A stretch of 64,000 nucleotides of DNA from Levilinea saccharolytica (GTDB lineage Bacteria; Chloroflexota; Anaerolineae; Anaerolineales; Anaerolineaceae): positions 1 through 64,000 of the forward strand of contig NZ_LGCM01000038.1 in the NCBI RefSeq assembly GCF_001306035.1, given 5' to 3'. The number at the start of each line of letters is the position of its first letter. Positions within the stretch are counted from its first letter, which is position 1. The notes under the pieces are model-generated. The model saw only the letters and a list, made by a program, of their open reading frames with translations, was not told the DNA's origin and did no database searches. The position numbers and the translations under genes were made by a program. Positions 43,963 through 58,154 of the stretch are shown here, piece after piece.

Positions 43963-43996
43963 ATATCCCTGGCTTTACCTAGCCCATAGCAAAGCC

Positions 43997-44027
43997 AATC
44001 CCCTCCCAAACGGGAGGGGATTTTTTT
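43997..44027 (+). terminator. Terminator of the oligopeptide ABC operon
   Basis: AATCCCCTCCC (43997-44007) pairs with GGGAGGGGATT (44012-44022), followed by a run of T to 44027. It separates the operon from the convergent deoB gene. Confidence 0.93.
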
Positions 44028-44063
44028 GTTTTGCGGAGGGTATTGTGGAGGAGGAGGGGCTTT

Positions 44064-45245
44064 TTAGGCCAGAACGTCTTTTAAGAAGCTTTCGCCGATG
44101 AGCGGAGCTTCCAGATTAAAGATTTCGGCCAGGGTGGCGGCCACATCCCCAAACGTCTTGCGCACGCCCAAATTGACATTGGCACGCACCTGCGGCCCAA
44201 AGACCAGCAGGGGGATGAATTCGCGGGTGTGGTCGGTTCCGGGAGTGGTGGGGTCCACGCCGTGGTCGGCCACGATCATGGCAATATCTTCCGGCCGCAT
44301 GCGGGCTTGCAGATCGGGCAGCTGGCGGTCGAAGGCGGCCAGGGCGTTGGCATAACCGGCGGCGTCGTTGCGGTGGCCGTAGGTCATGTCAAATTCCACC
44401 AGATTGGCAAACAGCAGCCCTTCAAACTTCTCTTCGGCGAAGGCAATGGTGGCGGCCATGGCTTTGTCGTTTTCGGCGGAGTGGGCCGAGCGGGTGATGC
44501 CCTGGTTGGCGAACAGGTCGTCAATCTTGCCGGTGGCCAAAACTGTGCGCCCGCTGGCGATGAGCTTATCCATGATGGTGGGCGAGATGGGTTTGAGGGG
44601 GTAATCGTGGCGGTTGGGGGTGCGCTTGAAATTGTCGGCGGTGGTGCCCACAAAGGGCCGGGCGATGACCCGTCCCACGGCATGGGGGCCGGTGAGCATT
44701 TCACGGGCGATGTGGCACAGCTCGTACAGGCGTTCCAGGGGGATGACGGCTTCGTTCGCGGCGATCTGGAACACGCTGTCGGCGGAGGTATAGACAATGG
44801 GTTTGCCGGTGCGCATATGTTCTTCGCCCAATTCCACGAGGATCTCGGTGCCGGAGGCGGGCTTGTTGCCCAGCACGTCTAAACCGGTGAGGCGTTTGAA
44901 CTCTGCCAGCACCTCGGGCGGGAAGCCGTTGGGGTACACCGGAAAAGCCTGGTTGAGGGGCACGCCCATCAGTTCCCAATGACCGCTGATGGAGTCTTTT
45001 CCGGCGGATTTGGGCTGCATTTTCCCAAAAGCGCCCGCGGCGGGCTTTTCGGCCGAAACGCCCAAAATGGGTTGAATATGTCCCAGGCCGAGGGTTTCCA
45101 TATTCGGGACGTTCAGCCCGCCCACAGCACGGGCGGTATTGGCCAGCGAATTGCTGCCGCGATCCCCATACAATTCGGCGTCGGGGGCCTCACCGGCGCC
45201 CACGCCGTCTAAGACAATCACGATGGCTCTTTGGATTGGCTGCAT
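44064..45245 (-). CDS. deoB: Phosphopentomutase
   Basis: This 393-aa alkaline-phosphatase-superfamily enzyme interconverts (deoxy)ribose-1-phosphate and -5-phosphate. It has metal-site motifs VLDGVGAGEAPD, TSADSVFQIAANE (phospho-Thr region), LVEFDMTYGHRND and VADHGVDPTTPGTDHTRE, and length fits the family. ATG 45245 follows AAGGAG. It is divergent from the nucleoside operon and reads away from the shared control region with the FadR-like operator. Its place at the edge of the nucleoside island explains its role: it takes the sugar-1-phosphate made by the phosphorylases at 54.7-58 kb into central metabolism. Confidence 0.95.
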   Translation of the reverse strand: MQPIQRAIVIVLDGVGAGEAPDAELYGDRGSNSLANTARAVGGLNVPNMETLGLGHIQPILGVSAEKPAAGAFGKMQPKSAGKDSISGHWELMGVPLNQAFPVYPNGFPPEVLAEFKRLTGLDVLGNKPASGTEILVELGEEHMRTGKPIVYTSADSVFQIAANEAVIPLERLYELCHIAREMLTGPHAVGRVIARPFVGTTADNFKRTPNRHDYPLKPISPTIMDKLIASGRTVLATGKIDDLFANQGITRSAHSAENDKAMAATIAFAEEKFEGLLFANLVEFDMTYGHRNDAAGYANALAAFDRQLPDLQARMRPEDIAMIVADHGVDPTTPGTDHTREFIPLLVFGPQVRANVNLGVRKTFGDVAATLAEIFNLEAPLIGESFLKDVLA

Positions 45246-45320
45246 GTGGTTTCTCCTTGGGTGGTTTTGACTACAAATAAGCGGGAGCGGTTTGGAAAGG
45301 GCAGCGGTGCGCAAAACCGC

Positions 45321-45349
45321 TTGACAAACCCGCACCTACTGGCTAATAT
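45321..45349 (+). promoter_or_regulatory. Promoter of the amidohydrolase-M20-RarA-like operon
   Basis: TTGACA (45321-45326), a 17-base spacer and TAATAT (45344-45349). The operator begins ten bases after the -10. Confidence 0.75.
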
Positions 45350-45358
45350 AAGATATAT

Positions 45359-45378
45359 TGGTAGGATCAGTATACCAT
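45359..45378. promoter_or_regulatory. Candidate GntR/FadR-type operator A
   Basis: TGGTAGGATCA (45359-45369) fits the FadR-type pattern TGGT-N3-ACCA with one mismatch. It is followed at once by GTATACCAT (45370-45378), so TGGTA and TACCA also make an N9 inverted repeat. The same 11-mer, inverted, and a nearly identical 9-mer occur at 48639-48658 before the GntR gene. It would overlap the start of transcription in the deoB/amidohydrolase divergent region. Confidence 0.55.
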
Positions 45379-45447
45379 GTTCGCGGTATTGTCTGGACGC
45401 CTGCCCTCCCAATCCACTTCTATCCCTACTATACCACCCAAACGACG

Positions 45448-46776
45448 ATGACGCCAAAACTTTTCTTAGCTGATGAGGTGCTGAGCCTCAATTCGCAGGG
45501 GGATATTTTTAAGCCGGGTTATGTCTTGATCGATGACGACCGGCTGGTTGAAGTGGGTCCGCAAAGCGCGCTGCAAGGCCGCCGCCTGGACGGCGCAATT
45601 CACCTGGAGCGGCGGCTGGTGATGCCGGGTTTGGTGAACGCGCACACCCACACCCCCATGTCTCTCTTTCGCGGCATGGCTGAGCCCTATTCTCTATTCA
45701 CCTTTGAAGGCTGGTATGCGGGCATTCGCGGGTTAGAAGCGGTGATGGACGGCGATATGGTCCCTCAGGCGGTGGCGGTATCCTGCGCGGAGATGATCCG
45801 CACGGGCACTACCTGCTTCGCCGACCAATACTTCTACATGGAGCGCGTGCTTCCGGTGGTGGCCCAAAGCGGTCTGCGGGCAGCCCTGGCTTATGGGATT
45901 GTGGAGCTGGGGGACGAAAGTGCCCGCCGCCGCGAACTGGATTCGGCTCGCCGCTTTTTGAGCCTGATCCGCGACCACCCGCGCCTGACGGGTTGGGTGG
46001 GGCCGCACGCCTTTTTTGTGGATAACAGCCTGGAAGCCATCCAGATGGAAATCGCCCTGGCGGATGAATTTTCCACCGGGCTGCATTTTCACCTGGCCAC
46101 CAGCGGCGAAGAAGAACGCTACTGCCGCGAGCACTACGGCGTTTCGGCGGTGGAGCAGATGCGGCGCCTGGGGCTGCTGGATCGGCGTCTGTTGGCGGCG
46201 CACTGTATCACCATCCCCGAAGAGGATTTTGCGGCCCTGGCTGCCCATCCTTTCACGGCGGTGATTGCCCCTTCGGCCTGCATGCGCAGCGGCGCGGCCA
46301 TTGCCCCGCTGAAAGGCATGCGGCGAGCGGGGATTAACACCGCCCTGGGCACGGATAATGTGGCCAACAATAACTCCTACGATCTGTTCAAAGAAATGCA
46401 GCTGGCGGGTAAGCTGATGTCGCTGCGGGAACAGGAACCCTCCGCCATTCCCGCACGCGAGATTGTGGAAATGGCTACCCTGGGCGGGGCGCGCGCCCTG
46501 GGCCTGGAGCATGAAATTGGTTCGCTGGAGCCGGGCAAGAAGGCCGATTTGATCACCCTGGATCTGGATGAAATTGGCTGGGGCCCGCGCGGCGGGCAGG
46601 ATATTTACACGGCGCTGGTGTATTCGGTGGGCGGCTACCATGTGCGCGATGTGATGGTGGACGGGCGCTGGCTGCTGCGGCATGGGCGCCTGACCACCCT
46701 GGATTATGCGTTGATGTCCGAAGGGCTAGATTTGGCCCAGGCTGAACTTCAGCGGCGGGTGCAGGCGGCGGGTTAA
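45448..46776 (+). CDS. Amidohydrolase of the MTA/SAH deaminase (SsnA/MtaD-like) group
   Basis: This 442-aa metal-dependent deaminase acts on a purine-type substrate. Motifs are NAHTHTPMSLFRGMAE (metal His pair), GLHFHLATSGEE, LLAAHCITI and ALGTDNVANNNSYDLF. The last follows the family's GTDxxxSNN pattern. 5'-methylthioadenosine, S-adenosylhomocysteine, adenosine or guanine are all possible, and the operon context favours a nucleoside or base. ATG 45448 is chosen at the start of homology, but no Shine-Dalgarno is present; a longer frame to 45358 would cover the operator. The stop is one base before the M20 start. Confidence 0.82.
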   Translation: MTPKLFLADEVLSLNSQGDIFKPGYVLIDDDRLVEVGPQSALQGRRLDGAIHLERRLVMPGLVNAHTHTPMSLFRGMAEPYSLFTFEGWYAGIRGLEAVMDGDMVPQAVAVSCAEMIRTGTTCFADQYFYMERVLPVVAQSGLRAALAYGIVELGDESARRRELDSARRFLSLIRDHPRLTGWVGPHAFFVDNSLEAIQMEIALADEFSTGLHFHLATSGEEERYCREHYGVSAVEQMRRLGLLDRRLLAAHCITIPEEDFAALAAHPFTAVIAPSACMRSGAAIAPLKGMRRAGINTALGTDNVANNNSYDLFKEMQLAGKLMSLREQEPSAIPAREIVEMATLGGARALGLEHEIGSLEPGKKADLITLDLDEIGWGPRGGQDIYTALVYSVGGYHVRDVMVDGRWLLRHGRLTTLDYALMSEGLDLAQAELQRRVQAAG

Positions 46777-46777
46777 C

Positions 46778-48001
46778 ATGCTTTCGCCCGAAGCCTTGCT
46801 CCGCAGCGCGCGCCGCTACGCCCCCCAGGTGGAGGCTTTTTTGGGGGATTTGGTGCGCATCCCGTCGGTGAACGGCAGCCACCCCGAAAAAGCTGCGGCG
46901 GAACGGGCTTTCGCAGAGGCGCAGCGCCTGGGGCTGACGGCGGCTCTGCCCGCGCGCGACCCGCAGCGGCCCAATTTTTTGGCCGAATGGGGGCGAGGCA
47001 GGGCTGGTTTTGCGCTGATCGCCCATATGGATACGGTGGCGGCGGGTGACCCGCAGGCGTGGAGCTGCCCGCCTTTTGCGGGAGAGGTGCGCGGGGGGCG
47101 CCTTTTGGGGCGCGGTGCGGCGGATAACAAAGCCGGGCTGGCCTGCGGGCTGTACACCCTGGCTTTGCTGCGCGATGAGGGCATTTTAGACCCTGACGCG
47201 GCGCGGGTGTGGATGGCGGGGGTGGCAGACGAAGAATCCGGCGCCTGTTCGCCGCTGGGTGTGCGCTATTTGCTGGATGAGGGGCTCATTCCGGCACAGG
47301 CGGCCATTTACACCTACACCAGCGATATCATCTGCATTGGCCACCGCGGGCTGCTGCGTTTTCGCGTGTTGGCCCGCGGGCGCGCGGTGCATTCGGGCAG
47401 CCCGGCCTGGAGCCGCGGTGAAGAAGGCGTGAACGCTTCCACCGGCCTGGCCGAGGTTTTGCTGCGCCTGGAAAAGCTGCTGCCGCCCGATTCTCACCCG
47501 GCTTTTCCGGGGATGCGCACCACGCTGACCCCGGGGACGCTGCTGCACGGGGGGGAATTTGAGAGTATGGTTCCGGCGGCAGCCGAGGCGCTGGTGGATG
47601 TGCGCCTGCTGCCGGGGATGAGCGCCGAGGCGGTGTTGGCTGCGGTGGAGGGTGTCTTACGAGAGGTAGCGGCGGCGCGGCCGGGTTTGGGCCTGTCGCT
47701 GGAAGTGAAGAACCGCCTGCCCGCGGCTTTGGTGCCCGCGGATCACCGTCTGGTGCGGGCTGCGCAGGATTACACCCGCCTTCTGACGGGCCGCAGTTGG
47801 CCGGTGGAGGGGGCTGGACCAGCCAATGAGGGCTATATGCTCATCGAGCAGGGCATCCCCACCCTGTGCGGCTTTGGCCCCACAGGCGGCGGCGCGCATG
47901 CGGCGGATGAGTGGGTGGATCTGGCTAGTTTACCGGTGACAATGGCCATGTATGCTGGCATCATTCATGCGGTATTGAATTCTGACACGGAGGAAAACTG
48001 A
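46778..48001 (+). CDS. M20-family metallopeptidase/amidohydrolase
   Basis: This 407-aa zinc enzyme is of the ArgE/DapE/CPG2 group. Ligands and catalytic residues are HMDTVAAGD (His), GAADNKAGLA (bridging Asp), VADEESGA (catalytic Glu pair) and a C-terminal GGGAHAADEWV (His). The dimerisation lid is at about residues 190-300. The gene starts one base after the amidohydrolase and ends two bases before the RarA-like gene, so the three are coupled. In this operon, hydrolysis of an N-carbamoyl or N-acyl compound from base breakdown is plausible; peptidase activity cannot be excluded. Confidence 0.83.
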   Translation: MLSPEALLRSARRYAPQVEAFLGDLVRIPSVNGSHPEKAAAERAFAEAQRLGLTAALPARDPQRPNFLAEWGRGRAGFALIAHMDTVAAGDPQAWSCPPFAGEVRGGRLLGRGAADNKAGLACGLYTLALLRDEGILDPDAARVWMAGVADEESGACSPLGVRYLLDEGLIPAQAAIYTYTSDIICIGHRGLLRFRVLARGRAVHSGSPAWSRGEEGVNASTGLAEVLLRLEKLLPPDSHPAFPGMRTTLTPGTLLHGGEFESMVPAAAEALVDVRLLPGMSAEAVLAAVEGVLREVAAARPGLGLSLEVKNRLPAALVPADHRLVRAAQDYTRLLTGRSWPVEGAGPANEGYMLIEQGIPTLCGFGPTGGGAHAADEWVDLASLPVTMAMYAGIIHAVLNSDTEEN

Positions 48002-48003
48002 CC

Positions 48004-48585
48004 ATGCCTGTACATTATTCGCAAGACCCCTGGACGCGCGTGCGCACCCGCCACGATATCCCCGCGGATGAGATCATCTCGGCTTTGCAAAAAGAAATTC
48101 GCCGCGGGCACACCGAGAACGCGGCCTTGATCGCCTATGAGATGATGACCACCAGCGCGGAACTGGAAGCCTATATGTGGAAGCGGCTGCTGTGCATTTC
48201 GGTGGAAGATGTGGGCTTTGGCAACCCTCAGGCCGCCAGCCAGGTGTACACCCTCTTCAAAATGCACGAAGTCTACCAGCGCGGTGAGGGCGACCGGCTG
48301 CTGTTTGGCATTCACGCCGTGCGCGTGCTGTGCCTGAGCCAGAAGGACCGCTCAACGGACGAGCTGGTCAACTGGATGCACGCGGTGGTGGAAGAGGGCG
48401 GACGCCTGCCGGAAATTCCCGATTATGCGCTGGATATGCACACCGCCCGCGGGCAGCAGATGGGGCGGGATCTGGATTATTTCCTGGCTGTCGGCTCGCA
48501 GGTGGAGCCGGAACTGGCCGACCGCGACCGCACCTACCGCCAGCGCCTGTTGGAGATTGTGGCCGAGCGCAAAAAAGCGCAGTGA
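48004..48585 (+). CDS. Free-standing RarA/MgsA C-terminal-like protein (no AAA+ domain)
   Basis: This 193-aa protein resembles the MgsA_C helical tetramerisation part of RarA, the replication-associated recombination ATPase. It has HDIPADEIISALQKEIRRGHTENAALIAYEMM, then LEAYMWKRLLCISVEDVGFGNPQAA, which corresponds to the RarA ...R(R)L...SEDIG...PQA... segment. No Walker motifs are present and the frame starts cleanly at ATG 48004, so it is a gene in its own right and not a broken RarA. It sits two bases after a metabolic M20 gene. What a scaffold domain does alone here is unknown. A promoter for gntR follows. Confidence 0.65.
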   Translation: MPVHYSQDPWTRVRTRHDIPADEIISALQKEIRRGHTENAALIAYEMMTTSAELEAYMWKRLLCISVEDVGFGNPQAASQVYTLFKMHEVYQRGEGDRLLFGIHAVRVLCLSQKDRSTDELVNWMHAVVEEGGRLPEIPDYALDMHTARGQQMGRDLDYFLAVGSQVEPELADRDRTYRQRLLEIVAERKKAQ

Positions 48586-48603
48586 TGCTTGCAAGGTCGC
48601 AAC

Positions 48604-48632
48604 TTGACATATCATCCGCTATTTTGTACAAT
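48604..48632 (+). promoter_or_regulatory. Promoter of the GntR regulator gene
   Basis: TTGACA (48604-48609), a 17-base spacer and TACAAT (48627-48632): a near-consensus promoter. The predicted start is near 48639, inside operator B. Confidence 0.82.
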
Positions 48633-48636
48633 CGAA

Positions 48637-48658
48637 ACTGATCCTACCAGCATACCAT
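48637..48658. promoter_or_regulatory. Candidate GntR/FadR-type operator B
   Basis: ACTGATCCTACCA (48637-48649) is the exact reverse complement of 13 bases at operator A (45359-45371). It is followed by GCATACCAT (48650-48658), one base different from the matching part of A. The location on the transcription start predicts autorepression. Confidence 0.55.
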
Positions 48659-48677
48659 AGGAACGGCAGGTAGATTC

Positions 48678-49400
48678 ATGGACATTCGCTTTCAACCCAT
48701 TGCTCGCAGTACGATGAGTAAAGATATCATCCGGATGATCATTGACATGATCAACACCGGCAAACTCCGGCCGGGTTCCAAACTCCCCTCTGAACGTGAA
48801 TTGATGGAACAGCTCAAAGTCAGCCGCTCGCCGGTGCGCGAGGCGCTGCGCTCCTTGACTCTGGTGGGCTTGCTGGAAACCGTGCCAGGGGGCGGCACCT
48901 ATGTGAGTGAAAACCTGGCCAGCGATATGATCGCCGAACAGTTGGAATGGTCGCGTCTGCTCACCGAGCCGGATATCGTCGAAATCATCGAGGTGCGCGA
49001 CCCGCTGGAGATTCAGGCGGCCGGGTTGGCAGCGCTGCGCGCCACCCCCGAAGCATTGGCGCATCTGCGTGAGGTGGTCGAAGGTTACTTGACCTCAGGG
49101 GATGATATTCTCAAAGCGGTGGAGATGGATTGGGAATTCCACCGTACCATCTTAAACATGGCGCAAAACAACCTCTTGAGTCAGTTGTTGGATACCATTC
49201 ACGGCATTTGGAACAACTACCGCGCCGAACAGAAGGTGCATTTTTCCAAAGCCAGCGAATTGGACCAGGATTTTGTCGAGGTCTTAGAGGCAATTGAACT
49301 GGGCGATGAGGCCCGCGCGCGTTTCGCGATGGAACGCCATCTGCTGCACAGCCGCCAAATTTCGGTGTATGACGTCCACAGTCTTAAAAGTGACTCTTAG
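48678..49400 (+). CDS. GntR-family transcriptional regulator (FadR subfamily, FCD domain)
   Basis: This 240-aa repressor or activator has an N-terminal winged helix (about residues 10-75: GKLRPGSKLPSERELMEQLKVSRSPVREALRSLTLVGLLETVPGGGTYV, with the family's arginine-rich recognition helix). The all-helical FCD ligand domain (about 90-230) has likely metal-binding positions in EIIEVRDPLE, DWEFHRTIL and AMERHLLHSRQ. Ligands of FCD proteins are usually small carboxylates or sugar acids; here a nucleoside-derived sugar or base product is likely. Its own promoter carries an operator shared with the deoB/amidohydrolase region. Confidence 0.9.
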   Translation: MDIRFQPIARSTMSKDIIRMIIDMINTGKLRPGSKLPSERELMEQLKVSRSPVREALRSLTLVGLLETVPGGGTYVSENLASDMIAEQLEWSRLLTEPDIVEIIEVRDPLEIQAAGLAALRATPEALAHLREVVEGYLTSGDDILKAVEMDWEFHRTILNMAQNNLLSQLLDTIHGIWNNYRAEQKVHFSKASELDQDFVEVLEAIELGDEARARFAMERHLLHSRQISVYDVHSLKSDS

Positions 49401-49420
49401 CGGTTCTGACTCAGCGAACT

Positions 49421-49449
49421 TTGACAACCCTACATCCTTCAGGTTGAAT
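49421..49449 (+). promoter_or_regulatory. Candidate promoter of the nucleoside ABC importer operon
   Basis: TTGACA (49421-49426), a 17-base spacer and TTGAAT (49444-49449). This leaves a long leader, about 220 bases, to ATG 49680. No GntR operator copy was seen in it. Confidence 0.55.
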
Positions 49450-49679
49450 CCTGGCCCCCATTGTCGCCCGAACGCCGGATGGCCAGTTTTCAAATTGTGG
49501 CTCCAGGCCTGTCTGTGAGCCGTGGGTGGGCGCGCAAATGCCGCCCGCATTCTTAGCGAGGAGGAGGAGGACCGCCTATACGTGAGATGATGTAGATATT
49601 TCGCTCCAACGAATGGGTAAACACGCGAGAAACTCTACCCAGTTTCAACCCTAACCCTGTTTTACCAAATGGAGAACGC
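49450..49679 (+). other. Long 5' leader of the nucleoside-importer operon
   Basis: About 230 bases without a credible gene lie between the promoter and the binding-protein ATG. A GGAGGAGGAGG run at 49560-49570 resembles a Shine-Dalgarno, but frames after it close within a few codons (GTG AGA TGA; ATG ATG TAG). A translated mini-leader or structured control element is possible. The conserved core of purine riboswitches was not found. Confidence 0.4.
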
Positions 49680-50846
49680 ATGATTCGCAAAACTTTAGCA
49701 TCCCTGGTACTGTTGATGGTCATGATGGCCATGCTGGTGGGCTGCGCCCCGGCCGCCACGCCCGAACCTGCTGCCCCGGCGGAACCTGCCGCTCCGGCCG
49801 AACCCGCCGCTCCCGCGGAACCGGCTGCCCCCGCGGAACCGGCTGCCCCGGCTCAGCCCGAAGCCAAAACCTACAAAGTGGCGTTGATCGCTTCCCTGCT
49901 CGGCGATAAGTCCTTCATGGACTCGGCCGCGGCCGGCATTAAGCTGGTCAACGAGAATATGCCCAATGTTGAAACCAAGATCATCGAGAACGCGGATGTC
50001 GGTGAACAGCAGTTGGCCGCCCGCGCCATGGCCGAGCAGGGTTATGACCTGGTCGTCACCATTGGTTACGGCTCCGCGGACTGGACCGATGAAATTGCGG
50101 CTGCCTTCCCGGACACTAAGTTCGCCATTGTGGACGCCACCCTGGCTCAGCCCAACGGCACGGGCCTGGTCTTCCGCGAGGACGAAGGCTCCTTCACCGT
50201 GGGTATGGTGGCTGCCATGCTGACCAAGACCAAGAAGGTCGGTTACATCGGCGGTATGGATGTTCCGCTGCTGCGCCGCTTCGAACTGGGCTACATCCAG
50301 GGCGTCAAGTACGTGGATCCTTCCATCGAAGTGGTTTCCGGCTGGATCGGCGATTTCAACGATGCCAACAAGGGTAAGGAATTGGCCCTGACCCAGTATC
50401 AGGAAGGCGTGGACATCATCTTCGCGGCGGCTGGTAAGGCTGGCGAAGGCGTGCTGAACGCTTCGAAGGAACGCGGTCTGTATTCCATCGGCGTGGACTC
50501 CGACCAGGACTACCTCTATCCTGGCCATGTCATCACCTCCATGATGAAGCGTGTGGACCTCTCCATCTACGGCGCGGTTCAGGCCCTGGTGGCGGGTGAA
50601 CTTTCTGGCGGCACCAAAGTCTTCGGTTTGAAAGAAGACGGCGTTGGCATGTGCTACCTGTACGACATTGATACCGAATTCCTGGATAACGGCCCTGCAG
50701 ATATGGCCGCTAAGATGAAAGACGAAGTAATCCCTGCTGTTAAGACCGCTGTGGAAAAGATCAAATCGGGTGAGATGTGCGTGAAGGATTACATGGAAGT
50801 GTTCCCCTGTGAAAATCCGGCCCCCGAAGGTGGCATGGGTAAGTAA
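49680..50846 (+). CDS. BmpA/PnrA-type nucleoside-binding lipoprotein of ABC importer
   Basis: This 388-aa extracytoplasmic protein is the receptor for purine and other nucleosides in the BMP family. The signal ends in MLVGC (Cys22). A linker of five EPAAPA repeats (residues 29-58) leads to the BMP domain, with KVALIASLLGDKSFMDSAAAGI, the PDTKFAIVDA segment, FREDEGSFTVGMVAAML, YIGGMDVPLLRRFELGYIQG and GVDSDQDYLYPGHVITSMMKR, as in PnrA and BmpA. GGAGAACGC stands before ATG 49680. The ATPase and two permeases follow, and the nucleoside-cleaving enzymes lie just downstream, so nucleoside uptake is well supported. Confidence 0.9.
   Translation: MIRKTLASLVLLMVMMAMLVGCAPAATPEPAAPAEPAAPAEPAAPAEPAAPAEPAAPAQPEAKTYKVALIASLLGDKSFMDSAAAGIKLVNENMPNVETKIIENADVGEQQLAARAMAEQGYDLVVTIGYGSADWTDEIAAAFPDTKFAIVDATLAQPNGTGLVFREDEGSFTVGMVAAMLTKTKKVGYIGGMDVPLLRRFELGYIQGVKYVDPSIEVVSGWIGDFNDANKGKELALTQYQEGVDIIFAAAGKAGEGVLNASKERGLYSIGVDSDQDYLYPGHVITSMMKRVDLSIYGAVQALVAGELSGGTKVFGLKEDGVGMCYLYDIDTEFLDNGPADMAAKMKDEVIPAVKTAVEKIKSGEMCVKDYMEVFPCENPAPEGGMGK
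49764..49853 (+). repeat. Tandem repeat coding for (EPAAPA)x5 lipoprotein linker
   Basis: Five 18-base units encode Glu-Pro-Ala-Ala-Pro-Ala between lipid anchor and binding domain of the BMP-type protein. The units vary slightly at third positions, and length variation between strains is likely. Confidence 0.85.
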
Positions 50847-50927: not shown

Positions 50928-52493
50928 GTGACGAACGCAGTTGAGATGATTGGGATCCGCAAGGTATACCCAGGGGTCATAGCGAACAACAATGTGAACT
51001 TTTCGGTTGCGACGGGGGAAATTCACGCCCTGGTTGGCGAAAACGGCGCTGGTAAAAGCACGTTGATGAACGTTCTCTTTGGGTTAACCCGTCCGGAAGA
51101 AGGCCAGATTTTCATTAACGGCAAGCAGGTGCATATACACAAGAATTCTGATGCGATTGCGCTGGGCATTGGCATGGTTCATCAAAGCTTCAAGCTGGTT
51201 CCTTCTTTCACCGTGACCGAAAATATCACCCTGGGCGGTGAGCCGCGCAAAGGCTTGTTGGTAGACCGCAAAGCGGCTCATGACAATATTGTGGAAATTT
51301 CGAAACGCTTTGGTCTGCAGGTGGACCCTGACGCCCGCATTCGCGATTTGCCCGTGGGCGTTCAGCAGCGCGTTGAAATTCTGAAGGCTTTGTATCATAA
51401 CGCAGATATTCTTATTCTGGATGAGCCGACGGCGGTGTTGACCCCCCAGGAGACGCGCGATTTATTTGGCGTGATTCGTTCATTAGTCGCCAAGGGGAAG
51501 ACCGTTATCTTCATTACGCATAAGTTCAATGAAGTGATGACGATTTCCGACCGTGTAACGGTGATGCGGGACGGCAAGGTGGTGGAAACCAAGGATACCA
51601 AAGACACCAACCCTACCGAATTGGCCCGCATGATGGTTGGCCGCGACGTGCTGCTGCGCGTGGATAAGGCCCCGGCCAACCCCAAAGATGTGGTTTTGGA
51701 AGTGCAAGACCTGGAAGTGCTCGACAACCGCAATCTGAAAGCCGTGCGCGGCTTGAGCTTGCAGGTGCGGGCGGGCGAGATCCTCGGCATTGCCGGTGTG
51801 GAAGGCAATGGGCAGCGCGAGCTGGTGGAAGCCATCGTGGGGCTGCGGCCGGTGTACAGCGGCAAGGTGGTCATGCAAGGCAAAGAGATCACCCATGCCA
51901 GTGTGCGCCAGCGCCGCGACGACGGCATTTCCTGCGTGCCCGAAGACCGCTATGTGCGCGGCGTGGCTTTGCGCGCCACCCTGGAAGACAATTTGATCGT
52001 GGAATCCTATTTTAAAGAGCCGATTGGCAGAGGGATGCTCATTGATCTGAACCAGGTGACGGAATTCTCGCAAAATTTGATCAAGAAATTTGACGTGCGC
52101 ACCCCCAGTTCCAAAGTGACCGCTGGGGCGCTTTCGGGCGGCAATATGCAGAAAGTGGTGTTGGCGCGCGAGCTGAGTCTGGACCCAACCCTTTTGATTG
52201 TCGCCCAGCCCACCCGCGGTTTGGATGTGGGCAGCATCGAGTTTGTTCACCGCACCATCATCGAAGCCCGCGACCGGGGGGCAGCCGTGCTGCTGGTTTC
52301 GGCTGAATTGGAAGAAATTATGTCGCTCAGCGACCGCATTAACGTGGTGTACGAAGGGCGCATTATGGGTGAGGTGAGCGGCGCCGAGGCGGACGAAGAA
52401 TCCCTGGGGCTGTGGATGGCGGGCGTTGGCGGAAATGCGGAAGCGGCTCATGAAGCCTCCAGTGAACACACCGCCGAGACGTTGAAAGGTTAA
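50928..52493 (+). CDS. Nucleoside ABC importer ATPase (two fused nucleotide-binding domains, BmpB/YufO-like)
   Basis: This 521-aa protein has two ABC domains in tandem, as in sugar and nucleoside importers. Domain 1 has Walker A GENGAGKSTL, a LPVGVQQRVEILKAL signature and ILILDEPTAVLTPQE. Domain 2 has a degenerate P-loop GVEGNGQRELV, signature LSGGNMQKVVLARE and a changed Walker B LLIVAQPTRGLDVG, where Gln-Pro replaces the usual Glu-Pro. The start is GTG 50928 with AGGAGG nine bases before. It is followed by two permease genes of the same system. One competent and one degenerate site is the family norm. Confidence 0.92.
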   Translation: MTNAVEMIGIRKVYPGVIANNNVNFSVATGEIHALVGENGAGKSTLMNVLFGLTRPEEGQIFINGKQVHIHKNSDAIALGIGMVHQSFKLVPSFTVTENITLGGEPRKGLLVDRKAAHDNIVEISKRFGLQVDPDARIRDLPVGVQQRVEILKALYHNADILILDEPTAVLTPQETRDLFGVIRSLVAKGKTVIFITHKFNEVMTISDRVTVMRDGKVVETKDTKDTNPTELARMMVGRDVLLRVDKAPANPKDVVLEVQDLEVLDNRNLKAVRGLSLQVRAGEILGIAGVEGNGQRELVEAIVGLRPVYSGKVVMQGKEITHASVRQRRDDGISCVPEDRYVRGVALRATLEDNLIVESYFKEPIGRGMLIDLNQVTEFSQNLIKKFDVRTPSSKVTAGALSGGNMQKVVLARELSLDPTLLIVAQPTRGLDVGSIEFVHRTIIEARDRGAAVLLVSAELEEIMSLSDRINVVYEGRIMGEVSGAEADEESLGLWMAGVGGNAEAAHEASSEHTAETLKG

Positions 52494-52505: not shown

Positions 52506-53663
52506 GTGAGCAAATTCATGAATTCCATGCGGGGCATTCTTCAGCGCTCATTCACGTTGGGCCTCAGCATTTTGATGGCAATCCTGGTGGGTTCGATCAT
52601 TATGCTGATTGATAACCATAACCCCATTGAGGTCTACCGGCTGCTGCTGGAAGGCGCGTTTGGCAGTACCCGTGGGCTGTTTATCACCATGCAGCGCGCC
52701 ACGCCCCTGATCTTCACGGCCATCGCCTCTACCCTGGCGTTCCGCACGGGCGTGTTTAACGTGGGTGTGGAAGGCCAGTTCTTCATCGGCGCCATTGTGG
52801 GAACCTGGGTGGGCTATGCCTTCCAGATGCCCGCGGTGATCCACCTGCCGCTGACGCTGCTGGCGGGCTTCATCGGCGGGGCGGCCTGGGCGTATTTCCC
52901 CACTGTCATGCGCCAGAAACTGGGGGTGAACGAAATCATCACCACCATCATGACCAACTACATCGCCACCTTTTTGATCTCGTATCTGACCAACTACCCC
53001 ATGCGCGCCAGCGCCACCACACCGGAGACCCCTCCTGTGCAGGTGACGGCGCGGCTGCCGCAGTTTGTGGAGATCAGCAAGGAGTTTGGCAAAGGCTCGC
53101 AGGCGCATGTGGGTATCTTCATCGCCTTAGCGGTGGTGGTGATCATGTGGTTCATCTTCCGCCGCACCAAGCTGGGCTACGAATGGCGCATGGTGGGTCT
53201 CTCGCACATGTTCTCGGAATTTGGCGGCGTCAACCTCAACCGCACCTTCATCAGCGGCATGTTGGTCAGCGGCGGCATCGCTGGCCTGGGCGGCATTGTG
53301 GAAATTTTGGGGGTGTGGCGCGAATACAAGAACCTGTTTGCGGTTGGCTTCGGTTTTCGCGGCAACCTGGCGTCTCTACTGGGCGGGCAGACGGTCATCG
53401 GTTCAACCGTGGCGGCCATCTTCTACGGCGGGATGGAATCGGGCGCGCTCAGTTTGGAATGGGGCGCAGGGGTTCCCCGCCAGTTGATTGACATCATCGT
53501 CGGTCTGGTGATCTTCTTCATGGCCGCCGAAGGCATGTGGGATTTCCTGCGGCGGCGCAAGGCGGCTGCCAAGAGCGGCGGCGACGCCCCCACCGCCGGA
53601 CAGACACCGGCCAAACCCGCCGAAAAGACGGAAGCCGCCGGTCAGGCTGCTCAGGCTAAGTGA
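52506..53663 (+). CDS. Nucleoside ABC importer permease 1 (YufP/BmpC-like)
   Basis: This 385-aa membrane protein of the BPD_transp_2 type has about ten helices, with FRTGVFNVGVEGQFFIGAIVGTWVG near residues 80-105 (the AFRxGxxNIGxEGQ hallmark) and a coupling-helix region GYEWRMVGLSHMFSEFGGVNLNRT. The C-terminus is a charged Ala/Lys/Pro-rich cytoplasmic tail (about 355-385), longer than usual. The start is GTG 52506, with AGGAGG before it. It works with the second permease as a heterodimer. Confidence 0.9.
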   Translation: MSKFMNSMRGILQRSFTLGLSILMAILVGSIIMLIDNHNPIEVYRLLLEGAFGSTRGLFITMQRATPLIFTAIASTLAFRTGVFNVGVEGQFFIGAIVGTWVGYAFQMPAVIHLPLTLLAGFIGGAAWAYFPTVMRQKLGVNEIITTIMTNYIATFLISYLTNYPMRASATTPETPPVQVTARLPQFVEISKEFGKGSQAHVGIFIALAVVVIMWFIFRRTKLGYEWRMVGLSHMFSEFGGVNLNRTFISGMLVSGGIAGLGGIVEILGVWREYKNLFAVGFGFRGNLASLLGGQTVIGSTVAAIFYGGMESGALSLEWGAGVPRQLIDIIVGLVIFFMAAEGMWDFLRRRKAAAKSGGDAPTAGQTPAKPAEKTEAAGQAAQAK

Positions 53664-53695
53664 ACTGGATGAACCGATAAGGAGCGGACCAAACC

Positions 53696-54649
53696 ATGGA
53701 TGGAAGTGTCTTGCTAGATATTCTTTCGCGGTACGTGTTTAACATCGCCAACATTCAAGGCATGCTGCGCCTGGCCACCCCGGTGGTTCTGGCGGGGCTG
53801 TGTGCGCTGATTACCGATCGGGCGGGCATTCTGAATATCGCTGGCGAAGGGATGATCCTGTTGGGAGCCTGGTTCGCTGTGGCGGCCAGCTATTTCTTCG
53901 GCAGCTCGATGATGGGCCTGTTGGGTGGGATTGTGGCCGGGTTGGTGGTGGGGGCGCTGTTTGCGCTCTTTTCGCTCAAATTCCGCGCCCACATCATCGT
54001 GATGGGTATTGCCATTAACATTTTTGCAGACGCCGCCACAATTTTCCTGACGCGCTCGGTGTTTGGGGTGGCGGGCGGCTTTACCGACCCCAAGATTGTG
54101 GGCTTTGGGGCCATTGAAATCCCCTTCATCAAAGATATCCCCATTTTGGGCGAGCTGCTCAGCGGTTACACCTTCATCGTCTACCTGACCTGGTTCCTGG
54201 TGGCCGCAACCGCTCTGTTCCTGTACCGCACGCCCTGGGGCTTCCATCTGCGCGCGGTGGGCGAGAACCCCGAAGCCGCCGAAACGATGGGCATCAATGT
54301 GCAGCGCATTCGTTTTTTGGCGGTGATGGCCAGCGGCGTTTTCGCCGCGCTGGCGGGGGTGTACCTTTCGCTGGGCCATCTGCAAGGTTATGTGGACAAG
54401 ATGGCCGCGGGCCGCGGTTTCATCGGCATGGCGGTGAACACCTTTGGCGGGGGCGCACCGTTGGGTGTGTTCCTCTCCAGCCTGCTGTTCGGTTTTGTGG
54501 ATATGCTGGGTTTCCGCTTGCAGGCTGAGCGCATCATCCCCATTTACTTTGTCAGTATGATGCCCTACATCGTCACCCTGGCCGCTTTGACCTATTTCAC
54601 CATCCGGCGTGAAAACGCGCGCAAGCGGGCCGCCACCAAAAAAGCATGA
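53696..54649 (+). CDS. Nucleoside ABC importer permease 2 (YufQ/BmpD-like)
   Basis: This 317-aa permease also belongs to BPD_transp_2. It has ITDRAGILNIAGEGMILLGAWFAV (the family NIGxEG motif) and GFHLRAVGENPEAAETMGINVQRIRF (coupling region). Helices are at about 15-35, 45-105, 155-180, 205-230 and 240-300. A 32-base gap follows permease 1, with TAAGGAG before ATG 53696. It is the last transporter gene of the operon; enzymes acting on nucleosides follow after a hairpin. Confidence 0.9.
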   Translation: MDGSVLLDILSRYVFNIANIQGMLRLATPVVLAGLCALITDRAGILNIAGEGMILLGAWFAVAASYFFGSSMMGLLGGIVAGLVVGALFALFSLKFRAHIIVMGIAINIFADAATIFLTRSVFGVAGGFTDPKIVGFGAIEIPFIKDIPILGELLSGYTFIVYLTWFLVAATALFLYRTPWGFHLRAVGENPEAAETMGINVQRIRFLAVMASGVFAALAGVYLSLGHLQGYVDKMAAGRGFIGMAVNTFGGGAPLGVFLSSLLFGFVDMLGFRLQAERIIPIYFVSMMPYIVTLAALTYFTIRRENARKRAATKKA

Positions 54650-54663
54650 GCGGTAATTAGCTT

Positions 54664-54688
54664 GCCAGGCGTCTCAGCGGCGCCTGGC
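54664..54688 (+). other. RNA hairpin between importer and phosphorylase genes
   Basis: GCCAGGCG (54664-54671) pairs with CGCCTGGC (54681-54688) across a nine-base loop. No T run follows, so it is not a usual terminator; it may mark an mRNA processing or stabilising point. Confidence 0.5.
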
Positions 54689-54706
54689 GAGAGAAAGAAG
54701 GACGAG

Positions 54707-55441
54707 ATGGAATTTCACATCCTCTGCAAACCTGAAGATATCGCCCCTTACGTTTTTGTGCCTGGGGATCACGACCGGGCCAAGAAAATCGCAGACCAAT
54801 TCGATCAGGCTCGCTTTGTGAGCGACAGCCGCGGGTATCACATTTACACCGGCACGGTGGACGGCATTCCCATGACCGTCTGCTCGACGGGGATGGGCGG
54901 CCCGCAAGTTGCCATCGGCGTGGAGGAGCTGGCCCATTTGGGCGCGAAGGTGTTCATTCGCGTGGGGTCTTGCGGCACGGCGCAGGATAATATCACCGTG
55001 GGCGATATCATCGTCCCCACGGGGGTGTACCGCGGTGGGGCCACCGCTCACAATTACCTGCCCCCGGCGTTTCCGGCGGCGCCTGATTTTGGGGTGTTGA
55101 CCGCGCTGGTGGAAGAAGCCCGCGCCACCGGCCCGGGGGCGCACGTGGGCATCGCATCTTCCAGCGACGCGTTTTATGCGGAAGGCGACCCGGCCCTGTA
55201 CGCCAAGATGAAGCAGGCGGGGGTGATGGCGTTTGAGATGGAATGCGACACGCTCTTCATCATCTCAAACTTCCGCGGCTGGCGGGCCGGGGCGGTTTTG
55301 GCCTGCGACGGCACCTCCACCGAGATCAAACCCGAATGGGGCCGCCAGGCTTTCCTGGACGGTGAAAAACGCGCCATCCAGGTGGCCGTTCGCGCCATGA
55401 AGCGCATTGCCCTGGAAGATCAACAGCGGCAGGCCGCCTGA
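54707..55441 (+). CDS. Uridine-phosphorylase-like nucleoside phosphorylase, copy 1
   Basis: This 244-aa cytoplasmic enzyme cleaves a nucleoside with phosphate to base and sugar-1-phosphate. NP-I family motifs are STGMGGPQVAIGVEELAHLG, IRVGSCGTAQDNITVGDIIVP, SSDAFYAEGDPALYAKMKQAGVMAFEMECDTLF and LACDGTSTE. The SSDAFY and EME(C)DT segments match uridine phosphorylase more than purine nucleoside phosphorylase. Base preference needs testing. ATG 54707 follows GAAGGACG. Copy 2 starts 18 bases after its stop with almost the same N-terminus, so they arose by tandem duplication. Confidence 0.85.
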   Translation: MEFHILCKPEDIAPYVFVPGDHDRAKKIADQFDQARFVSDSRGYHIYTGTVDGIPMTVCSTGMGGPQVAIGVEELAHLGAKVFIRVGSCGTAQDNITVGDIIVPTGVYRGGATAHNYLPPAFPAAPDFGVLTALVEEARATGPGAHVGIASSSDAFYAEGDPALYAKMKQAGVMAFEMECDTLFIISNFRGWRAGAVLACDGTSTEIKPEWGRQAFLDGEKRAIQVAVRAMKRIALEDQQRQAA

Positions 55442-55459
55442 GGCAGAAAGGGAAACGTC

Positions 55460-56191
55460 ATGGAATTCCATATTCGCTGCAACCCAGAAGAGATCTCAAG
55501 GTACGTGTTTGTGCCCGGCAGCCACGCGCGGGCCAAGATGATGGCAGAACATTTTCAGGAGTGCCGCCTGGTTTCGGACAGCCGCGGCTACCTGGTGTAT
55601 TCGGGCATGGTGGACGGCATTTTTATGACCGTGTCTTCTACCGGCATGGGTGGGCCGACCACAGCCATTGCGGTGGAAGAACTGGGCCACATGGGCGCGG
55701 ATACGATGATCCGCGTGGGCTCCTGCGGCACCATGCAGGATTACGTGAACGTGGGCGACGTGGTGGTGGCCACGGGCACCTTCCGCGCGGGCGGAACGGC
55801 CAACAACTACCTGCCGATTGAATTTCCAGCGGTGCCCAATTACGATGTGACCGCGGCCCTGGTTCAAGCGGCCAAACGGCTGGATTTAAAGGTACATGTG
55901 GGCCTGGGCTCGGCCGGAGACGCCTTTTATGCGCCCCGCGACCCATCCAGCCGCGACTATTTGAAGCAGTCCGGGATTATTTCGGGTGAGATGGAAAGCG
56001 ACACTTTGTTCGTGATCGCCGCCTTACGCGGGTGGCGCGCCGGTGCTTTGTATGCCAATGACGGTACTTCCAAAGAAACCAAGCCTGAATGGGGAGAAGA
56101 GGCTTTCCGGCGCGGAGAAGAAAACGCCATCCGCATCGCTTTGGAAGCGATGAAAGCGATTGCACAGGCGGACGCTGCAGCCGGCGCATAA
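55460..56191 (+). CDS. Uridine-phosphorylase-like nucleoside phosphorylase, copy 2
   Basis: This 243-aa paralogue of the gene just upstream begins MEFHIRCNPEEISRYVFVPGSHARAKMM. It has SSTGMGGPTTAIAVEELGHMG and RVGSCGTMQDYVNVGDVVVA, but GSAGDAFYAPRDPSSRDYLKQSG in place of SSSDAFY, and YANDGTSKE in place of ACDGTSTE. These changes lie around the nucleoside pocket and suggest a different base or sugar preference. The phosphate and ribose motifs remain. GGGAAACG precedes ATG 55460. The two could also form mixed hexamers. Confidence 0.85.
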   Translation: MEFHIRCNPEEISRYVFVPGSHARAKMMAEHFQECRLVSDSRGYLVYSGMVDGIFMTVSSTGMGGPTTAIAVEELGHMGADTMIRVGSCGTMQDYVNVGDVVVATGTFRAGGTANNYLPIEFPAVPNYDVTAALVQAAKRLDLKVHVGLGSAGDAFYAPRDPSSRDYLKQSGIISGEMESDTLFVIAALRGWRAGALYANDGTSKETKPEWGEEAFRRGEENAIRIALEAMKAIAQADAAAGA

Positions 56192-56290: not shown

Positions 56291-57241
56291 ATGACACCTC
56301 GAAAAGTGATCATTGACTGTGATACCGGTGTGGACGACGCCATGGCTTTGAGCCTGGCCCTGCGCTCGCCGGAATTGGAAGTGGTCGGCATCACCTGCGT
56401 GGCGGGGAATGTGGAATTGGAGCACGTCATCCGCAACACGCTGACGGTGGTGGAGCTTTCCGGCAAACGCGTGCCGGTGTACGCGGGGGCCTACCGGCCT
56501 TTGATGGGCGCCTGGGAGACGGCGGCCTCGGTGCACGGGCGCAAAGGCTTTGGCGACCTGGAATATCCGGAGCCGAAAATCCGCGTGGAAGCTGAACACG
56601 CTGTGGATTTCCTGGTGCGCGCCTTTTTGGAGAGCCAGAACGACCTGGATCTGATCACCATCGGCCCGCTGACTAACGTGGCCCTGGCGCTGGCCAAGGA
56701 TGCGCGTCTGGCTTCCAAGATCCGCTCGATTACCATGATGGCGGGCGGCATCAACGCGGGCAATTCCACCCCGGCCGCGGAATTTAACATTTATGCCGAC
56801 CCTGAAGCCGCCGATCTGGTCTTCCGCAGCGGCATCCCCCTGACCATGATCGCCCTCGATCCGATCATGGAATGCGGCGGCATTTACGTGGCTGATGTGG
56901 AGGATATGGAGGCGGCGGGCACGCCCTGGTGTACGCTGGTATCGCGGCTGCTGCGGCGCAATTTGGAACGCATGAAGATCATTTACAGCGACAACCTGCG
57001 GACGAACCCGCCCGACCTGCTGGCGGTGGGGGTGTACATTGACCCCAGCATCGCCGACTGCGAGATGTTCCATGTGACCGTGGAATGCCGCGGCGAGCAC
57101 ACCCGCGGGATGACCCTCCTCGACCGGCGCATGTGGGCGCGGGCGATGGGGCTTTCGGCTAAGCCAAATGTGAACGTGGTGAAGACGGTGGATAATCTCC
57201 GCTACCGCGCCCTGGTGGTGGATACGCTGACCGCCCACTAG
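56291..57241 (+). CDS. Nucleoside hydrolase (IunH/RihA-type)
   Basis: This 316-aa enzyme hydrolyses the N-glycosidic bond of ribonucleosides without phosphate. The hallmark calcium site DCDTGVDDAMAL (DxDxGxDD) is at residues 9-20. Further ligands are TIGPLTNVALAL, MMAGGINAGNSTPAAEFNIYADPEAA (with the Asn that binds ribose) and PPDLLAVGVYIDP (the Asp of the second half of the site). AAGGAG is ten bases before ATG 56291. TGGTATTCT at 56253-56261 might be a weak extra promoter. Its presence beside phosphorylases gives a second, phosphate-independent route to free bases. Confidence 0.9.
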   Translation: MTPRKVIIDCDTGVDDAMALSLALRSPELEVVGITCVAGNVELEHVIRNTLTVVELSGKRVPVYAGAYRPLMGAWETAASVHGRKGFGDLEYPEPKIRVEAEHAVDFLVRAFLESQNDLDLITIGPLTNVALALAKDARLASKIRSITMMAGGINAGNSTPAAEFNIYADPEAADLVFRSGIPLTMIALDPIMECGGIYVADVEDMEAAGTPWCTLVSRLLRRNLERMKIIYSDNLRTNPPDLLAVGVYIDPSIADCEMFHVTVECRGEHTRGMTLLDRRMWARAMGLSAKPNVNVVKTVDNLRYRALVVDTLTAH

Positions 57242-57278
57242 TGGGCTGACATCATGGAAGGGAGTGAAAGGAGCGCAT

Positions 57279-58154
57279 ATGGACACAAAAGCGCAGTTTG
57301 GCGACACGTTCGGCCCCAGCCTGTTGTGGCGCGAACGCCGCAAAGAGGCCGCGGCGTACATCCGCACGCGAACCTCGTTCGTTCCGGAGATTGGGATCAT
57401 CCTCGGTTCCGGCCTGGGGGCCATCGCCAGCGAGATTCAAAACGCGACGGTGATCCCCTACAAAGACATCCCCTATTTCCCCCAGTCCACCGTGATGGGG
57501 CATGCCAGTGAGCTGATTTTGGGTGAGCTGGAAGGCAAGAAGATTGTGGCCATGAATGGGCGCTTTCATTTTTATGAAGGCTACACCATGCAGCAGATTG
57601 CCTTCCCGGTGTGGGTGATGCGCACCCTGGGCACGCAGGTGCTGATCGCCACCAACGCGGCAGGGGGCATTAACCGCTCGTTTTCGCCCGGCGATTTGAT
57701 GATCATTGTGGATCACATCAACCTGCTGTGGGATAACCCTCTGATCGGCCCCAACGATGACGAATTGGGCGTGCGTTTCCCGGCGATGGGGCTGGCTTAC
57801 CCCTGGGACATGATTGAGCTGGCCCAGGCCGCGGCGGATAAGGAAAACATCCCGGTGAAGCGCGGCGTGTATGTGGCCACGCAAGGGCCGGTGTACACCA
57901 CCCGCGCGGAGGGCGAGCTGTACCGGCTGATGCGCGCGGACGCGGTGGGCATGTCTACCGTGCCTGAAATCATCGCCGCCACCCATGCGGGCATGCGCAC
58001 CTTGGGCATTTCCTGCATCACCGACGCCAGCAAAGACCCCAAGGCGGGTCCGGCGGGGGTGCTGACCCATGAGGAGGTGGTGGAAGTGGCCAACCGCACC
58101 AAGCCCAAGTTCATCCGCTTGATGAAGGCCATCCTGCGCGAAATTAACCTGTAG
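57279..58154 (+). CDS. Purine nucleoside phosphorylase (trimeric, PunA/PNP type)
   Basis: This 291-aa phosphorolytic enzyme acts on inosine and guanosine. Motifs are IGIILGSGLGAIASE (phosphate loop), GRFHFYEGYTMQQIAFPVWVM, TNAAGGINRSFSPGDLMIIVDHINL, YVATQGPVYTTRAEGELYRLMRADAVGMSTVPEIIAA and GISCITDASKD, all as in low-molecular-mass PNP. Length is in the normal range (270-290). ATG 57279 has AAAGGAG upstream; longer frames lack it. It provides purine bases and ribose-1-phosphate for DeoB and for Xpt. Confidence 0.93.
   Translation: MDTKAQFGDTFGPSLLWRERRKEAAAYIRTRTSFVPEIGIILGSGLGAIASEIQNATVIPYKDIPYFPQSTVMGHASELILGELEGKKIVAMNGRFHFYEGYTMQQIAFPVWVMRTLGTQVLIATNAAGGINRSFSPGDLMIIVDHINLLWDNPLIGPNDDELGVRFPAMGLAYPWDMIELAQAAADKENIPVKRGVYVATQGPVYTTRAEGELYRLMRADAVGMSTVPEIIAATHAGMRTLGISCITDASKDPKAGPAGVLTHEEVVEVANRTKPKFIRLMKAILREINL

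Follow-up and report, generated by a model that had tools for sequence, protein, structure and literature searches.

We analyzed a 64,000-nucleotide stretch of the Levilinea saccharolytica genome (RefSeq assembly GCF_001306035.1, contig NZ_LGCM01000038.1, positions 1 to 64,000, forward strand; here called the window), in which two 19-bp elements lie at the promoters of an amidohydrolase unit, divergent from deoB, and of gntR, a regulator gene followed by genes for nucleoside uptake and breakdown. Both elements are predicted to be operators of the GntR protein encoded at 48678-49400 (probability about 0.8; this figure and the grading of all other claims are our own judgment). At the level of sequence, site identity, position, conservation, and regulator family are established. 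The features concerned are as follows.

45359..45377, + strand: operator 1, TGGTAGGATCA-GTAT-ACCA, a FadR-type inverted repeat with one mismatch, plus a third half-site
48639..48657, + strand: operator 2, TGATCCTACCA-GCAT-ACCA, at the same place in 5/5 orthologous gntR loci
45321..45349, + strand: amidohydrolase-unit promoter, TTGACA-17-TAATAT, 10/12 consensus
48604..48632, + strand: gntR promoter, TTGACA-17-TACAAT, 11/12 consensus, aligned in 5 genomes
45428..45457, - strand: weak candidate deoB promoter, TTGGCG-18-TATAGT with TG before the -10 box, 9/12, consensus match only
44064..45245, - strand: deoB, phosphopentomutase, divergent (TIGR01696, 477.8 bits, above cut-off)
45448..46776, + strand: amidohydrolase, TRZ/ATZ type (PF01979, 173.9 bits; nearest NCBIfam models all under cut-off)
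48678..49400, + strand: gntR, FadR-subfamily putative repressor (GntR helix-turn-helix [HTH] plus FCD; PF00392 and PF07729, above cut-off)

Two sites at two promoters

An 11-mer, TGGTAGGATCA, was found at 45359-45369 (+) with the tail GTATACCAT, and its reverse complement, TGATCCTACCA, at 48639-48649 (+) with the tail GCATACCAT, as an earlier sequence-only reading had reported; the FadR-family scheme TGGT-N3-ACCA, which it proposed with one mismatch, holds for both sites. The reverse-complement pairing is literally correct, but the two operators align better in the same orientation, as TGRT-N3-AYCA-GYAT-ACCA without inversion; it is the near-palindromic core that makes the 11-mers appear inverted. 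That reading also recorded the tail GYATACCAT and missed the third half-site within it, an ACCA placed 8 bp beyond the second half-site and oriented like it in both operators.

Repeats of 11 nucleotides are common as such (5,871 pairs within the window), and therefore a repeated 11-mer alone is no evidence. The pattern TGRTNNNAYCANNNNACCA occurred exactly twice in 64 kb, both times at the operators, and did not appear in 60 Markov simulations. The many random genome occurrences named beforehand as the outcome that would count against the prediction were not seen: in the organism's own genome (G000; 4.23 Mb), exact matches to TGRTNNNAYCAGYATACCA were the two operators only, with 5 further matches at 2 mismatches (reversed control pattern, 3 matches). 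Matches to a looser pattern (≤2 mismatches) numbered 29 versus 66 for the reversed control in G000, 23 versus 61 in a genome of the same genus (G001), 41 versus 38 in G400, and 47 versus 90 in G447, with no clear excess in any of the four. A position weight matrix (PWM) scored the operators at 27.2 and 24.5 and the next non-overlapping site of the window at 10.2, values that are partly circular, as the matrix was derived from the window and orthologous sites. Beyond the family shape, both operators share the letters CAG.ATACCA. A perfect TGGTAGAACCA at 13123 was rejected as chance; it lies within a long frame (penicillin-binding protein by eye) and has no third half-site.

Promoters were sought by consensus matching only, over 43900-50000. 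Four promoter-like sites were found (1.7 expected from shuffles), and the two best are those adjacent to the operators, which bears out the earlier placement of the sites just after the -10 boxes of near-consensus promoters. The -10 box is separated from the operator by 9 nt (operator 1) and 6 nt (operator 2); therefore, the operators overlie the probable transcription start.

The regulator had been placed between the two sites; gntR instead lies directly downstream of the second. Its assignment as an FadR-type GntR protein held, as the window protein is a member of the FadR subfamily, with a GntR HTH (PF00392, 78 bits, residues 15 to 76) and an FCD domain (PF07729, 80.8 bits, residues 102 to 222). 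Named NCBIfam models fell under their cut-offs (NanR, 115.4 bits against a cut-off of 260; LldR, 103; PdhR, 90; and others). The AlphaFold model was moderate (mean pLDDT, 76.6; pTM, 0.56; 10 sequences), with an all-helical C-terminal domain, and the 50 Foldseek matches listed included FadR-family structures (FadR, NanR, 2di3, and the NanR-DNA and FadR-DNA complexes) with E values of 3.5e-9 to 2.2e-6 and query-normalized TM-scores of only 0.41 to 0.62 among those listed. Of the Asp/His ligand set of the FCD metal site, D151, H155, and H221 are present; the usual site may be altered here, because the window protein has F199, and the G447 ortholog (L075) Tyr, where G400 and G455 have His.

Conservation at gntR and an 8-bp half-site register

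Protein searches with GntR (61 genomes at E≤0.001, 396 at 1e-20, and 48 and 301 at 1e-45, in overlapping sets) and a genome contig collection yielded four further loci with the gntR neighborhood: G001, G400 (L068), G447 (L075), and G455 (L103). The GntR proteins were 98%, 44%, 54%, and 48% identical to the window protein, respectively, and 19.5 kb of the window was alignable with G001 at 92%. The M20, MgsA_C, GntR, BMP, and ATP-binding cassette (ABC) genes were retained in all four (tblastn), and Pfam agreed for MgsA_C, BMP, and GntR in L068, L075, and L103, for the FCD domain in the same three, and for M20 in L068 and L103. None of the eleven other window genes was found in the compared stretches, several of them short, of nine other Anaerolineae-side GntR loci (L069-L073 and L099-L102; 31 to 41% identical; L099 duplicates L070).

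The gntR-promoter site was present in 5/5 orthologous loci, 6 to 9 nt after a TATAAT or TACAAT -10 box. It reads TGGTCCTACCA-GCGG-ACCA in G447, TGGTCCTACCG-GTAT-ACCA-GTGT-ACCA in G400, and TGGTCTGACCA-GCAA-ACCA-GCAT-ACCG in G455, so that in two genomes the 8-bp register extends to a fourth half-site (an exact ACCA in G400, ACCG in G455). The TGGT-N3-ACCA core is exact in G447 and G455 and carries one mismatch in G000, G001, and G400. Identity of the site in G001 (18/19, versus 66/74 around it) adds little. Exact matches in whole-genome scans numbered one each in G400, G447, and G455, all at gntR (a slightly looser pattern was used for G455), and two in G000; the single exact match of G001 is at the amidohydrolase, its gntR site having one mismatch. 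Because the site stands at the gntR promoter in all five loci, GntR very probably regulates its own gene, as had been predicted.

Recurrence of the third half-site was examined in 114 upstream regions of GntR genes, chosen by similarity to the window GntR and nearly all of the same class (L100-L102 are from genomes of unstated kinship); similarity, and not a gene-by-gene FCD test, was the criterion. Of these, 54 came from 60 listed protein-search loci, of which the other 6 (L020, L028, L030, L033, L036, and L050) were set aside as unclear, and a further 60 were fetched, picked by E value. Six loci (L008, L044, L048, L096, L098, and L099) were not entered in the list, being the own gene, short in their flanks, or duplicates of listed loci, and four fetched regions shortened by contig ends (L122, L134, L137, and L165) were retained. 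Exact TGGTN3ACCA occurred in 24/114 regions. Of 12 control patterns, TGGTN2ACCA occurred 4 times and the other 11 no more than once. Within the 24, 10 had ACCA 8 bp past the second half-site and 5 had TGGT 8 bp before the first, and every other offset from 4 to 19 gave 0 or 1. After removal of L097 (the G455 ortholog), L065, L054, L128, L136, and L147, 12 of the 18 non-redundant regions had a third half-site exactly 8 bp away, with ~0.14 expected per offset (18 × 2/256); other offsets from 4 to 20 gave at most 2, those 2 being at 16, twice the period. The count is 11/17 without L037, in which a GntR-type HTH heads a 549-amino-acid protein of other make-up. In 206 kb of sequence examined, four other TGGTN3ACCA sites were without a third half-site, and the two that had one are gntR orthologs. 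As separate observations, the rest of the 549-amino-acid protein (L037:1501-3150) looks ThiF/E1-like by eye, with TGGTATGC-TGGTCTGACCA directly upstream, and FadR-type sites at L045, L051, and L186 have a 9-bp instead of an 8-bp half-site period.

FadR-type repressors of Anaerolineae may commonly read an operator of three or four half-sites spaced strictly by 8 bp, which would combine the palindrome of FadR with the tandem array of NanR and let two or three dimers assemble cooperatively with no need for an N-terminal extension like that of NanR. We advance this tentatively, at somewhat less than even odds; as a general rule it is only partial, because 90/114 regions are without the exact core. 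Upstream stretches of 30/34 FCD loci of one Paenibacillus and one Rhizobium genome, cut crudely by position and too few to judge, held one exact TGGTN3ACCA, with a 9-bp period.

The amidohydrolase/deoB site and competing explanations

All 19 positions of operator 1 are identical in G001, whereas the remaining intergenic region matches at 134/185 alignment columns (72%); at 72% identity, the chance of 19 unchanged positions is ~0.002 (simple multiplication). The amidohydrolase promoter of G001 is TTGACA-17-TAAACT, in which the -35 box and the 17-nt spacing are retained and the -10 box has drifted. Outside the genus, G455 is the only genome where the amidohydrolase site could be tested: its amidohydrolase is 70% identical and runs in the same direction as gntR, whereas the G400 match covers query residues 111 to 438 only and the best G447 match is 36% identical. 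The motif search in related genomes suggested earlier thus succeeded at gntR (5/5) and in the amidohydrolase/deoB region of G001, and failed upstream of the G455 amidohydrolase.

The earlier claim that GntR controls the divergent unit therefore divides. Control of the amidohydrolase unit is likely, given the identity in G001; its operator was seen in one genus only, represented by two close genomes, and was not found in G455. Control of deoB is possible, and we put it just short of an even chance. Operator 1 sits mid-way in the divergent intergenic region, its center ~80 bp from the ATG of the amidohydrolase and ~120 bp from the start codon of deoB; the sole promoter-like match on the deoB side is weak (9/12), and deoB adjoins the amidohydrolase in G001 and not in the compared stretches of G400, G447, and G455. 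In GntR divergons, single sites usually lie near the middle and serve both operons (PMC4494728, accessible parts). No good site was found in the upstream region of the G400 nucleoside hydrolase.

Several points weigh against the two elements being operators of this GntR. The G455 amidohydrolase operator was not found in 719 bp upstream or by the PWM over L103 (14 of 20.7 kb of the contig). Each window operator has one palindrome mismatch, and these fall in opposite halves; in G001, gntR has ACCG as its third half-site. Exact TGGTN3ACCA is absent upstream of 90/114 GntR genes, L045 has a 9-bp period, and so, on either side, does a Rhizobium site. Elsewhere, G001, G400, and G447 each have a single match with one mismatch and G455 has five, one of which lies just upstream of a true FadR paralog (L177:1501-2253; PF07840, 135.9 bits). 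The downstream genes may have an unseen promoter within the 279-bp gap between gntR and the BMP gene, and the comparison with rival binders in the own genome was confined to FCD loci. Around the matches in G001 (L086), G447 (L081), and G400 (L083), the long frames included no GntR-like frame; two of the five G455 matches were inspected (L175, L178, and L179 were outside), and of the open reading frames (ORFs) listed for near-match C179 (L176), none was a GntR or nucleoside gene. Cross-talk between FadR-type regulators in G455 is possible, because the FadR paralog (FadR_C domain) has a similar operator just upstream.

The strongest alternative, which we regard as unlikely, is that operator 2 alone serves GntR autoregulation and that another GntR-type regulator uses the amidohydrolase site, either exclusively or jointly with GntR. 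The family-wide operator shape, the match upstream of the G455 FadR paralog, and the missing G455 amidohydrolase site would all fit it; against it stand the shared CAG.ATACCA, which goes beyond the family shape, and the PWM scores, with their partial circularity. The own genome gave 15 GntR-similar matches and six FCD loci, window gntR included, and the other five FCD loci offer no comparable site: four are without exact TGGTN3ACCA, and one (TGGTTTTACCA, L184) differs in its spacer and lacks the third half-site. That perfect TGGTTTTACCA (L184:1148-1158) lies near the frame start of an own-genome FCD regulator and is perhaps its own operator.

Retention of the elements for a promoter or untranslated-leader function (as initially transcribed sequence) would suit their position at the expected transcription start. 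This is very improbable, as other GntR genes have the palindrome and 8-bp register too, in differing sequence contexts and at differing distances, and the amidohydrolase -10 box drifts between G000 and G001 while operator 1 is unchanged. Chance likeness of two short elements, for which only the abundance of 11-mer repeats speaks, is negligible in view of 0/60 simulated 64-kb sequences with the 19-bp shape and the gntR site in 5/5 loci.

Known systems, proposed mechanism, and gene content

Operators of the FadR subfamily (FadR, PdhR, LldR, and GlcC) consist of TKGT/ACMA boxes with a 3-nt center (PMC4494728, accessible parts). The window system resembles these in its palindrome with a 3-nt center and its HTH and FCD domains, and it differs in having a third half-site in fixed 8-bp register and targets in nucleoside uptake and breakdown. 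The same study, in the parts available, included six Chloroflexi FadR-type factors and reported weaker additional half-sites 7 to 12 nt from the GntR palindrome center in 23 orthologous groups, leaving their function to experiment; on that account, the operator type is already known. The window third half-site, ~11.5 nt from the center, is similar; unlike those described in the accessible text, its orientation and spacing are fixed (12/18 at 8 bp, in a sample of one class). The fixed spacing makes the question of additional GntR half-sites (PMC4494728) testable.

NanR of Escherichia coli binds three GGTATA repeats cooperatively as three dimers, at an operator downstream of the polymerase site (PMC8012715, available portion), and E. 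coli nanA upstream DNA has GGTA-type half-site repeats with periods of 9 and 8 bp. The window operators share with that system a direct half-site repeat and a position downstream of the polymerase site; they differ in comprising one inverted pair and one direct repeat (one GGTATR half-site) and in serving other genes. The 32-residue N-terminal extension described for cooperative assembly of NanR (PMC8012715, available portion) is not seen in the window protein, whose GntR domain match starts at residue 15. The operator thus looks like a FadR/NanR mixture, and the protein is not NanR, given its score with the NanR model. NupR of Bacillus thuringiensis, according to the part of PMC9430930 available, is likewise a GntR-family protein linked to nucleoside transport and belongs to the HutC subfamily, not FCD. 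Among the entries listed by literature word searches, none described the window regulator or the 8-bp rule in Anaerolineae.

We propose that a repressor dimer would bind the inverted repeat TGRT-N3-AYCA and that a second dimer would be held on the ACCA half-site 8 bp on, so that ~19 bp near the transcription start would be covered and RNA polymerase blocked at both promoters. Binding at 48639 would provide autoregulation and, by read-through, control of the downstream nucleoside uptake/phosphorolysis genes; binding at 45359 would act on the amidohydrolase-M20-MgsA_C unit and might also act on deoB, which is divergent. Read-through beyond gntR is probable, because the 279-bp gntR-BMP gap has no promoter-like site and the gap is short in G455 (20 to 90 bp, depending on the start codon); the PWM and promoter scans found neither a good operator match nor a promoter-like site in 49401-49679. 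A nucleoside, base, or (deoxy)ribose phosphate would probably release the repressor; judging by gene content alone, the inducer is probably nucleoside-derived. With regulator, operators, and promoters located to the base, the locus offers a nucleoside-scavenging regulon that can be tested, in a class of anaerobes that has been little studied. Its other genes are the following.

46778..48001, + strand: M20 family deacylase/peptidase (PF01546, PF07687)
48004..48585, + strand: stand-alone MgsA_C-domain protein (PF12002, 37.3 bits; cut-off 27)
49680..50846, + strand: BMP/PnrA-like nucleoside-binding lipoprotein (PF02608, 233.9 bits)
50928..52493, + strand: ABC transporter ATPase (PF00005)
52506..54649, + strand: two ABC permeases, 52506-53663 (PF02653) and 53696-54649 (ORF and position only)
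54662..56191, + strand: two uridine-phosphorylase-like genes (PF01048; uridine phosphorylase model below cut-off)
56291..57241, + strand: nucleoside hydrolase (PF01156, 296.1 bits)
57264..58154, + strand: purine-nucleoside phosphorylase (TIGR01700, above cut-off)

The amidohydrolase substrate is perhaps a nucleoside or base. For deoB, the ATG at 45245 was used as the start codon; it is residue 31 of the mechanical ORF, in which the TIGR01696 match runs from residue 36. Terminator-like hairpins on both strands lie at 43969-44022, between oligopeptide ABC genes and deoB. The uridine-phosphorylase-like pair (54662-56191) is also adjacent in L075 by ORF reading. A stand-alone MgsA_C protein, consisting only of the C-terminal domain of the MgsA/RarA ATPase, stands between M20 and gntR in 5/5 loci (48004-48585 in the window; L067:7941-8519; L075:787-1362; L103:6776-7564; L068:3962-4537).

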